Source: a virus
Length of the DNA stretch: 39,526 nt
IMG/VR virus record: IMGVR_UViG_3300049427_000017
Location: 1 to 39,526 of that record
Direction: 5' to 3' (one strand)
In this document: positions 2,695 through 37,936 of the stretch, piece by piece
How the letters are laid out: each line of letters opens with the position of its first letter
Numbering within the stretch: position 1 is the stretch's first letter
The notes under the pieces: generated by a model
Databases searched by the model: none
Told to the model about the DNA's origin: nothing
What the model saw: the letters and a program-made list of their open reading frames with translations, nothing else
Translations under genes and position numbers: made by a program

Positions 2695-3012
2695 ATGGCA
2701 ATCCCTGTATTTGATAAAAATAATAACCTACATCATTTGGAAACGATGGATGTGGCAAGTATCTGCAAAGAGGAGCAAACGCGTAGGAATATTGCTCTTA
2801 TAGGAAACAATGAATATTATCTACCGCACACAATTGCACAAATAAATATGTTGTTGTCCTCTTCAGGTTTTTATCAAATAAATAAAAACCAAATTATCAA
2901 CCCGACACTAATCGACAAGTATAATACTGGGAAAATTACCATTGGGGAGAGGGATTATTACCTTTCAAAGCGTAGAATTGCTCCATTCGAGGATTTTTAT
3001 TTTCCAGACTGA
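2695..3012 (+). CDS. Stand-alone LytTR-like DNA-binding protein
   Basis: 105 residues. From about residue 36 the order of elements matches a LytTR DNA-binding domain: a strand with NEYYLPHT, a helix NMLLSSSGF, then YQINKNQIINP-LIDKYN, ITIGERDYYLS and K-R-R-I-x-x-F. This corresponds to the usual F-x-R-I-H-R-S-x-x-V-N ... I-x-x-G-x-x-Y-x-V-S-R-R-R layout. No receiver domain is present. AGGTGAG precedes the ATG. It sits alone after a terminator, beside the SOS-type promoter. It could be a transcriptional regulator or an inhibitor of a host LytTR regulator. The call rests on pattern resemblance. Confidence 0.6.
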   Translation: MAIPVFDKNNNLHHLETMDVASICKEEQTRRNIALIGNNEYYLPHTIAQINMLLSSSGFYQINKNQIINPTLIDKYNTGKITIGERDYYLSKRRIAPFEDFYFPD

Positions 3013-3262: not shown

Positions 3263-3475
3263 CTACTCCCAATACCATTCGTACAAACTGTCCATGTCGC
3301 ACTCTAAGGCAACAGATATTTTTTTGGCGGTAATTAAATTCATCATTCTGCCGCCACTAATATATTCTGATATGCGACCAGGAGGGATTCCCGTTTTATC
3401 GCTTAGCCATTTTTGCGATTTTTTTAAGGACCTCAATCGTTGATGGAGTAGGCATCGACCTGGTTTGAGTTCCAT
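3263..3475 (-). CDS. Small XRE-like helix-turn-helix protein
   Basis: 70 residues from ATG 3475: MELKPGRCLLHQ, then a helix-turn-helix (SQKWLSDKTGIPPGRISEYISGG) and a C-terminal YEWYWE. The frame extends upstream to 3556, but that extension crosses the LexA box and promoter region, while GAAAGGG sits about 8 nt before ATG 3475. It is divergent from the 43-residue gene at 3577 and shares its regulatory DNA. Role unknown; possibly a regulator of the neighbouring switch. Confidence 0.65.
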   Translation of the reverse strand: MELKPGRCLLHQRLRSLKKSQKWLSDKTGIPPGRISEYISGGRMMNLITAKKISVALECDMDSLYEWYWE

Positions 3476-3502: not shown

Positions 3503-3530
3503 TTGTACCGAACGTTTGTTCTCGTATAAA
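3503..3530 (+). promoter_or_regulatory. SOS-type promoter with LexA (DinR) box in the spacer
   Basis: TTGTAC (3503-3508), a 16-bp spacer and TATAAA (3525-3530) make a promoter. The spacer contains CGAACGTTTGTTCT at 3509-3522, with intact GAAC-N4-GTTC half-sites of the Gram-positive LexA/DinR consensus CGAAC-N4-GTTCG. LexA bound here would sit between -35 and -10. The promoter points at the 43-residue gene at 3577. The leftward XRE gene starts 28 bp away and may be co-regulated. Confidence 0.7.
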
Positions 3531-3576
3531 ATAAGAACACGGCTGCTATACATCAACTACTGGGGGAGCTGTTGCC

Positions 3577-3708
3577 ATGTCCAGCGAGGAACAAGTTAAT
3601 TATTTAATAGAATCCATATCAGAATTAAAAGAAATAGATAACGAAGAGTTTACCTTATTTGTTAAGCAGTCAATTATTGCTTCATATCCCCAAAAACCAA
3701 CTGGATAA
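3577..3708 (+). CDS. 43-residue protein under a LexA-box promoter (candidate induction trigger)
   Basis: Starts MSSEEQVNYLIESISELKE and ends YPQKPTG: acidic, predicted helical, no Cys, no membrane segment. GGGGGAG lies about 9 nt before the ATG. The only good promoter upstream is the one with a LexA box in its spacer. The gene converges on, and overlaps by 35 bp, the 3' end of the second repressor. By analogy with LexA-controlled small antirepressors of other temperate phages (Gifsy-type, coliphage 186 Tum) it may inactivate a non-cleavable repressor; this is inference. A weak resemblance to the KinA inhibitor Sda (L-I-E-S, K-E, F-x-x-L spacing) is also visible. Confidence 0.6.
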   Translation: MSSEEQVNYLIESISELKEIDNEEFTLFVKQSIIASYPQKPTG

Positions 3709-4021
3709 TTTGCTCCAGTTTTTCTTTTGCGCCAGGTTTTTTTAAATCGACTCCGTATTTCTCAACAATTTCTCTGATAACAAAGTCCGTTTGATCTCTC
3801 GGGAGAATAGTCATAGAATGATCCCTTCCTAAAAGGTAATCTGTCTGAACCTCGTATAGGTCAGCTAACTTAGTCAATGTATCTGTATCGGGGTCTCGCA
3901 ACCCGTATTCCCAGTTTGAATATGTGCTGCTTTGCTTTATTCCCAGCTTTGTAGCTACATATTTTTGAGACCAACCCTTTGACTCACGAAGCGCCCTCAA
4001 TCGATCCCCTAAAATAGACAT
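3674..4021 (-). CDS. XRE-family repressor (CI-like, second switch)
   Basis: 115 residues starting MSILGDRLRALRESKG. The ATG at 4021 is decided by AGGAGGTG 5-6 nt upstream, although the frame stays open to 4135. The helix-turn-helix is at about 5-65 (SQKYVATKLGIKQSSTYSNWEYG) and the C-terminal half is helical (IREIVEKYGVDLKKPG). No peptidase S24 domain, so no RecA-dependent self-cleavage is expected. It is divergent from the Cro-like gene at 4171. Three 17-bp TTACAC-type palindromes in and downstream of the divergent region are its probable operators. Confidence 0.85.
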   Translation of the reverse strand: MSILGDRLRALRESKGWSQKYVATKLGIKQSSTYSNWEYGLRDPDTDTLTKLADLYEVQTDYLLGRDHSMTILPRDQTDFVIREIVEKYGVDLKKPGAKEKLEQIIQLVFGDMKQ

Positions 4022-4170: not shown

Positions 4171-4359
4171 ATGAACAAACGACTTCGCGAACTTCGTAAA
4201 AAACGAGGCGTTAGCATATCATTTGTGGCCGTTAAACTTGGCTACAAACACCCTAGTGGTTATGCAAATATTGAATATGGAATTAATCGCCTTAGACTGG
4301 ATCAAGCAAAAACAGTCGCTGATCTGTTTGGTGTAACAGTTAATGATCTAATAGGATGA
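4171..4359 (+). CDS. Small XRE-family regulator (Cro-like, second switch)
   Basis: 62 residues beginning MNKRLRELRKKRG, essentially only a helix-turn-helix (VSISFVAVKLGYKHPSGYANI). ATG 4171 follows a purine-rich GTGGTGAGAAC; upstream in-frame starts would lie on top of the promoter at 4099-4127. Divergent from the repressor at 3674-4021 and immediately followed by the operator-covered early promoter. Probably the Cro counterpart that turns down the repressor after induction. Confidence 0.8.
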   Translation: MNKRLRELRKKRGVSISFVAVKLGYKHPSGYANIEYGINRLRLDQAKTVADLFGVTVNDLIG

Positions 4360-37005: not shown

Positions 37006-37044
37006 AAAAGAAAAGACACCTAATCGCTAGGTGTCTTTTCTTTT
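37006..37044. terminator. Perfect 17-bp-stem bidirectional terminator
   Basis: AAAAGAAAAGACACCTA (37006-37022), loop ATCGC, TAGGTGTCTTTTCTTTT (37028-37044). U-tracts on both strands. It ends leftward transcription of the P63C gene, whose stop codon overlaps it, and would also stop late rightward transcripts. Confidence 0.9.
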
Positions 37045-37936
37045 ACTCAATCGCAGCTGCAACTTCTTCACGTTGCTGTTTAAGGTTTAGTTCTTCTTCA
37101 AACTCTATCTGAAAATTTTCTTCAAACTGTTCGACTGTTTTAGATATTCTCATTATTGTTATTAGTCTTGTAATATGGTTGTCCAACTGAGGCAAACCAA
37201 TATTGGTAGTTAGGTATTGATGTATTCGATTTCTGCGGAATGATGTATTTTCTGATTTCACCATTGGATTTTTGTTTCTTATTTCATCCATTACCTCTTT
37301 AGGAAACAAGTCGTAGACATATTTGTTTGTAAACTTGCCAATCATGGCCGGACGCAAATTGGATTGTGCATTGTATTCCCAATTATGGAGTTTGAAAATT
37401 TCTTTATAGTATGTGTTTGGGAATCGTTTTTGCCATTGCATTAAATCTTTCGCTATGTATTGCTCTAGAAGTTTTTGTAGGGCTTGAGATTCACGATCCT
37501 CTTGATAACCGGTAGCTTCATCAATCAAAGCAGTAATACCGACTTTAGCAAGTGATCTAATCAAAATCATAGATCGTTCATACCTATTATTTTGAGAGTT
37601 AAGAAGGATGTTTTTTTCTTTTGCTTCGATGTAGATACTACAGACTTCTGTTATTAAATCTGCATCATATCCATTAGCAACCTTGCCGTTCGTGTGGTAG
37701 TAAGGGATGACCTGGAATTTCTCAGCAACTTCAGGAGTAATTAGTGCTTGTAAGTTTTTTGCTTCTAAAATAGATGGAACGCCGTTTTCATTAATAAGTG
37801 ATCCTCTTCTGGATTTGTCAAAAGCTTCAAATAGTCCAGTTTGAGTTACAACGCGCTTTCCGTTTTCTAAAACAGCACACGGTATTTGCTTTCCAGCAAC
37901 ATTTAGATACCCTCTATGAGTCGCTTTAAAAACCAT
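37043..37936 (-). CDS. P63C-domain protein
   Basis: 297 residues. The P63C signature is extended: RYERSMILIRSLAKVGITAL, IDEATGYQEDR, then KRFPNTYYKEIFKLHNWEYN, RPAMIGKFTNKYVYDLFPK and a final HQYLT ... LPQLDNHI. The family is widespread in phages and plasmids, function unknown (sometimes linked to KilA-N-type proteins). AAGGGG precedes the ATG; a near-consensus promoter lies upstream. Leftward inside the late region, so probably expressed in the lysogen. Confidence 0.85.
   Translation of the reverse strand: MVFKATHRGYLNVAGKQIPCAVLENGKRVVTQTGLFEAFDKSRRGSLINENGVPSILEAKNLQALITPEVAEKFQVIPYYHTNGKVANGYDADLITEVCSIYIEAKEKNILLNSQNNRYERSMILIRSLAKVGITALIDEATGYQEDRESQALQKLLEQYIAKDLMQWQKRFPNTYYKEIFKLHNWEYNAQSNLRPAMIGKFTNKYVYDLFPKEVMDEIRNKNPMVKSENTSFRRNRIHQYLTTNIGLPQLDNHITRLITIMRISKTVEQFEENFQIEFEEELNLKQQREEVAAAIE

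Follow-up and report, generated by a model that had tools for sequence, protein, structure and literature searches.

A candidate LexA-controlled micro-antirepressor encoded beside a non-self-cleaving phage repressor

How might a phage repressor that lacks a self-cleaving domain be removed when the DNA of the host is damaged? We considered this question in the virus record IMGVR_UViG_3300049427_000017, analysed over its whole length of 39,526 nucleotides (the window), in which a LexA/DinR-type box lies in the promoter of a gene for a 43-residue protein, tail-to-tail with the gene of a short repressor of the XRE family. Judged from sequence, this protein is likely to be a LexA-controlled micro-antirepressor acting on the adjoining repressor, and we infer that it works through the repressor's C-terminal helices. 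A LexA-controlled antirepressor was the original prediction for this region, and it stands as the best-supported reading, given a layout found in about 30 prophages and the covariation of the small open reading frame (ORF) with the C-terminal domain of the repressor. The prediction lacked the target, and it had missed both the second side of the box and the YopS-like gene at 3263–3475 that begins there.

In the mechanism that we propose, host LexA bound to the box in a lysogen would keep the small-ORF promoter silent, and probably the YopS-like gene too. DNA damage would remove LexA, and the 43-residue two-helix protein would then be made; it would bind the C-terminal helical domain of the adjoining 115-residue non-self-cleaving repressor and break its oligomer, and the inactivation of the repressor would release the genes on the cro side. 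LexA binding, SOS induction, contact between the two proteins and inactivation of the repressor are steps that we deduce from the arrangement of the genes. As for the YopS-like protein, our guess is that it is an autoregulator or a second lytic switch. The features of the module, with expectation values (E) of domain matches and the predicted local distance difference test (pLDDT) of models, are as follows.

3503–3530, plus strand: promoter of the small ORF by sequence, TTGTAC (3503–3508), 16 bp, TATAAA (3525–3530)
3509–3522: LexA/DinR box CGAACGTTTGTTCT, core GAACGTTTGTTC at 3510–3521, the sole exact GAACN4GTTC in the window
3562–3568, plus strand: ribosome binding site GGGGGAG, by sequence
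3577–3708, plus strand: 43-residue protein, candidate antirepressor; ATG at 3577, stop at 3706–3708; position conserved, two-helix hairpin predicted by AlphaFold2
3263–3475, minus strand: 70-residue YopS-like XRE protein (HTH_3, E=4e-8), divergent from the 43-residue ORF across the LexA box
3674–4021, minus strand: 115-residue XRE repressor, helix-turn-helix (HTH) at residues ~1–65 (HTH_3, E=2.4e-15), no S24 domain; AlphaFold2 pLDDT 84
3674–3826, minus strand: repressor residues 66–115, a C-terminal pair of helices (75–89 and 98–113; AlphaFold2) and the proposed target, pointed to by covariation
4171–4359, plus strand: 62-residue Cro-like XRE protein (HTH_3, E=9e-10), divergent from the repressor

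The LexA box and the genes around it

The LexA-type box had been placed in the spacer between the TTGTAC and TATAAA elements, and the sequence bears this out; its motif is also that of the boxes upstream of lexA in six of seven host-type genomes, the seventh (L140) being one in which the start codon of lexA could not be placed. Because one exact GAACN4GTTC was found where 0.5 were expected in 39.5 kb (0.0013 per 100 bp), the count alone is unremarkable, and what matters is the position of the box in a promoter and its conservation. The 70-residue XRE gene starts on the other side, 34 bp from the box core (46 bp from the core start in the gene's own direction), and the box therefore lies in a divergent promoter region, which on this sequence evidence is very likely to be under LexA control. 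The protein encoded there matches YopS of phi3T and SPbeta over its full length (tblastn; 32–44% identity over 96–100% of the length), and its gene has, as in the YopS family, an SOS box in its divergent intergenic region.

Two traits of LexA-controlled antirepressor systems (Gifsy, 186 and N15) are seen in the window. First, a LexA box lies within the promoter of a small gene, as read from its sequence. Second, the repressor has no self-cleaving domain: a Pfam search detected peptidase S24 in neither of the two large XRE repressors (3674–4021 and 1–453), as had been claimed. The description of the small protein as acidic and helical with a good ribosome binding site also held, with a net charge of -5 and a hairpin of two predicted helices (residues 3–18 and 23–36; AlphaFold2 mean pLDDT 82), and the last 35 bp of its ORF overlap the 3′ end of the repressor's coding sequence, exactly the length first given.

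A layout shared by related prophages

A search of genomes for YopS-like genes yielded 72 distinct loci, mostly in genomes of one family of Bacilli that we take to be the Paenibacillaceae. In 32 of the 72 (30 of the 32 being non-redundant), an exact box stands 40–58 bp before the YopS-like start, and in 29 of these 32 a small ORF of 30–65 residues diverges from the YopS-like gene and is tail-to-tail with a short XRE repressor. An ATG-initiated ORF of at least 37 residues with a ribosome binding site occurs there in 24 of the 32 loci, compared with 1.9% of dinucleotide shuffles. Between related small ORFs, with antisense overlap excluded, differences at codon positions 1, 2 and 3 number 33, 21 and 61 (p=2e-5), and the ratio of nonsynonymous to synonymous change (pN/pS) is 0.23–0.89, mostly 0.4–0.6; by these sequence measures, the small ORFs of the relatives are coding. 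On the small-ORF strand, the 30 non-redundant relatives show enrichment of a -10-like element next to the box (mean score 4.37/6, against 3.78 in shuffled sequences).

The same arrangement was recovered from the repressor side. A search with the C-terminal domain of type C gave 20 genomic matches, of which 14 have a small ORF and a box 133–176 bp past the repressor stop, although two of these ORFs, those of L163 and L165, are short and uncertain calls; because the 14 loci partly overlap those found through YopS, they serve as a cross-check and not as a fully independent sample. Among the other six, L148 has a YopS-like gene, a small ORF and a box with one inserted base; four (L156 and L158–L160) have no YopS neighbour, the two inspected (L156 and L158) lying in a non-prophage setting; and L164 is a fragment. 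For the domain of type A, a box was found in 5/5 loci with a YopS neighbour and in 0/25 without one.

Boxes were also seen in other positions. In L037, L041 and L056, where no box lies upstream of the YopS-like gene, an exact GAACN4GTTC stands just downstream of it, at roughly +394 to +438 relative to its start. In L105 (4639–5588), a YopS-like gene and lexA itself diverge, and the box between them, AGAACAAACGTTCC, is that of lexA.

The small ORF covaries with the C-terminal domain of the repressor

If the small protein is an antirepressor directed at the C-terminal domain, its ORF should track that domain. For 28 loci, we divided each repressor into HTH and C-terminal domain and correlated the similarity matrices. 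Similarity among the small ORFs followed that of the C-terminal domains (r=0.75, or 0.70 when the overlap is cut out of both). Its correlation with the HTH was 0.18 and with YopS 0.31, values that became -0.01 and 0.01, respectively, when the C-terminal domain was allowed for, and among pairs with dissimilar YopS the correlation with the C-terminal domain stayed at 0.64. In 11 pairs in which the HTH is similar but the C-terminal domain differs, the small ORFs are never alike (0.07–0.12). Natural swaps were also found: in L119/L120, the C-terminal domain, small ORF and YopS are nearly the same and only the HTH differs, and in L035/L045, the repressor and small ORF are shared and YopS is not. 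Distance alone does not set these correlations, because the HTH and C-terminal domain of one and the same gene correlate weakly, reaching just 0.24. At the level of sequence, the covariation points to the C-terminal helices of the 3674–4021 repressor, and not to the 1–453 repressor, as the target.

The closest solved full-length relative of the repressor is the phage phi106 repressor in complex with AimX (PDB 9sf2; E=3e-14, residues 4–112), and PDB 9iaq, whose title names a small antirepressor of arbitrium phages, is also among the nearest; SinR/SinI (1b0n) appears as well. In the SinR/SinI pair, the small partner is helical and binds an XRE regulator at its helical end. These relatives make a helix-on-helix antirepressor plausible, without demonstrating one. 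The rows matched in the model search cover the HTH, and the C-terminal helices of the repressor were therefore barely tested by it.

Weighing the alternatives

The alternative that survives best, which we nevertheless regard as unlikely, is that the YopS-like XRE protein is itself the SOS effector, a Cro-like competitor that displaces the repressor from its operators, the small ORF being accessory. The box keeps a fixed distance from the YopS-like start (-40 to -58), yopS of SPbeta carries an SOS box (PMC8270828), and no protein of the module is better conserved than YopS. If YopS competed for the repressor's operators, however, it would be expected to covary with the DNA-binding domain of the repressor, and the correlation between the two is 0.10 (p=0.08). 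The -10 element next to the box, moreover, shows no enrichment on the YopS strand (3.70, against 3.86 in shuffled sequences), and one locus, possibly a decayed prophage (L154, 1810–2060), has kept the box and the small ORF while no YopS-like gene is detectable after its ribosome binding site.

It is quite improbable that the small protein targets the host SOS machinery (LexA or RecA) and tunes the response with the repressor untouched. The protein is small and very probably LexA-controlled, and gp7 of GIL01 is reported to bind LexA (PMC4551915), but a conserved host target should not give sequence change in step with the C-terminal domain of the repressor.

Interference by antisense transcription had been suggested as an additional effect, and it could in principle be the whole effect, with SOS transcription from the box running into the repressor gene and lowering its expression whatever the protein does. 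The overlap of 35 bp in the window, and of up to 98 bp in relatives, suits this view; the overlap is, however, absent or at most 4 bp in seven relatives, and the small ORFs are constrained at the codon level. As a mechanism shared by the group it is not supported, and we give it very little credence. The remaining explanation, that the small ORF is not a real gene and the YopS-like gene is the only one that the box controls, draws on the lack of a homologue of the 43-residue protein (see below) and is made very improbable by the recurrence of a divergent ORF at the same place far above the shuffled frequency and by the third-position excess in relatives.

Several points nevertheless weigh against an antirepressor encoded at 3577–3708. 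The YopS-like gene shares the box, and an effector role for it is possible; linkage of the adjacent and often overlapping small ORF and C-terminal domain could explain part of the covariation. The 43-residue protein is a singleton: nothing significant was found in Pfam, PHROGs, NCBIfam, PADLOC, PDB sequences or a tblastn search of 50,697 phages, and Foldseek gave its model no match at E below 5 and no PDB match. What is conserved in related phages is thus the position of the ORF and not, as far as these searches go, its sequence, and because there is no homologue the evidence that it is coding comes from its position, start site and promoter. The likeness of the window to the nearest group is weak (0.37 to L130 for the C-terminal domain and 0.24 for the small ORF), and the hidden Markov model of group C gave E=0.07.

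Two library families that came up for the 43-residue protein, BH0509 (NF033562, E=0.019, below the cut-off) and phrog_24028 (E=0.005), were rejected, such values being no better than chance for a protein this short. A resemblance to the kinase inhibitor Sda, offered earlier as another possibility, was not supported by the Pfam Sda model, which gave no match up to E=1.

Comparison with known systems

In Salmonella, the small LexA-controlled proteins GfoA, GfhA and GftA of Gifsy-1, Gifsy-2 and Gifsy-3 bind and inactivate repressors that are not cleaved (PMC3121763). The logic here would be the same, a LexA-controlled small protein paired with an uncleaved repressor, the antirepressor role being that of a candidate. 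Unlike the Gifsy genes, the small gene of the window is tail-to-tail with the repressor, and the small proteins of the module have no detectable match to any library family (none significant in Pfam, PHROGs or NCBIfam), so the likeness is one of function and not of homology. Tum of coliphage 186 and AntC of N15 are also LexA-controlled antirepressors, and Tum binds its repressor (PMC3121763); Tum has 146 residues and a DinI-like half, whereas the protein of the window has 43 residues.

The divergent geometry is also that of the TF-smORF modules (transcription factor and small ORF) of Vibrio and Aeromonas phages, in which a transcription-factor gene diverges from the gene of a small protein that inactivates the phage's own cI; these small proteins have little mutual similarity, and the modules are SOS-independent (PMC10432266). 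In the window, a LexA box lies between the two genes, and the module appears to combine Gifsy-type working with a TF-smORF-type layout. AimX of phi106 is a small protein solved with an XRE repressor related in sequence to that of the window, but it belongs to an arbitrium system, and no AimR was noticed in the window, where no separate search for it was made.

A LexA-box divergon of the same kind is present in SPbeta, where the exact sequence GAACGTGCGTTC lies between yopS and yopT and, as in the window, an SOS box stands between the YopS gene and a small divergent gene. This box was listed from earlier work, without measurement of LexA binding (PMC8270828, Table 1). YopT, with 72 residues, has no similarity to the small ORFs of the module, and the SPbeta repressor MrpR/YopR is integrase-like and encoded on the yopS side, whereas the repressor of the window is an XRE protein encoded beyond the small ORF. 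How SOS removes the SPbeta repressor was described as unresolved in 2021 (PMC8612738).

Other genes of the window

The virus record that forms the window is cut at gene ends; genes between positions 1 and 39526 are visible, no terminal repeat was found in the record, and because of the cut an integrase or another gene may lie outside. The genes at 1–453 and 543–761 form a second repressor/cro-like pair, followed by a 281-residue protein at 817–1662, so that the phage has two immunity-like switches. In the relative L027, the counterparts of these second-switch genes adjoin an integrase, which lies beyond the repressor corresponding to 1–453. Near the module, 2695–3012 encodes a 105-residue LytTR-type DNA-binding protein (E=3e-7), and a similar gene is found near the modules of several relatives. 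Near the right end of the record, a minus-strand gene (37043–37936) encodes a P63C domain (E=3e-28).

No ImmA-type HExxH metallopeptidase is evident in the window, where two HE..H matches were seen, neither in such a context; an M78-type gene for the ImmA route was likewise not found there, although one may lie beyond the ends of the record. In L002 (5899–5933), a relative of the phage, GAACATACGTTC immediately precedes the ribosome binding site of a gene of ImmA type (Peptidase_M78, E=4e-14), an arrangement that could give SOS a second route to a repressor that does not cleave itself.

Implications

Short non-self-cleaving repressors are common in the prophages of Gram-positive bacteria, and how they sense damage is often unexplained. 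The module described here offers an answer that can be tested, for which nature supplies about 30 variants as well as domain swaps, and it predicts which repressor responds to which small protein; looking next to LexA boxes can also reveal small proteins that annotation has missed. It is also quite possible, if still short of probable, that prophages of this family of Bacilli carry an exchangeable SOS-sensor cassette, in which a repressor C-terminal domain and the micro-antirepressor that matches it travel together with a promoter under LexA control and are joined to unrelated HTH domains. If this is true, a type of regulator that is also found outside prophages would become damage-responsive through the cassette, and yopS/yopT of SPbeta would represent another form of this solution.
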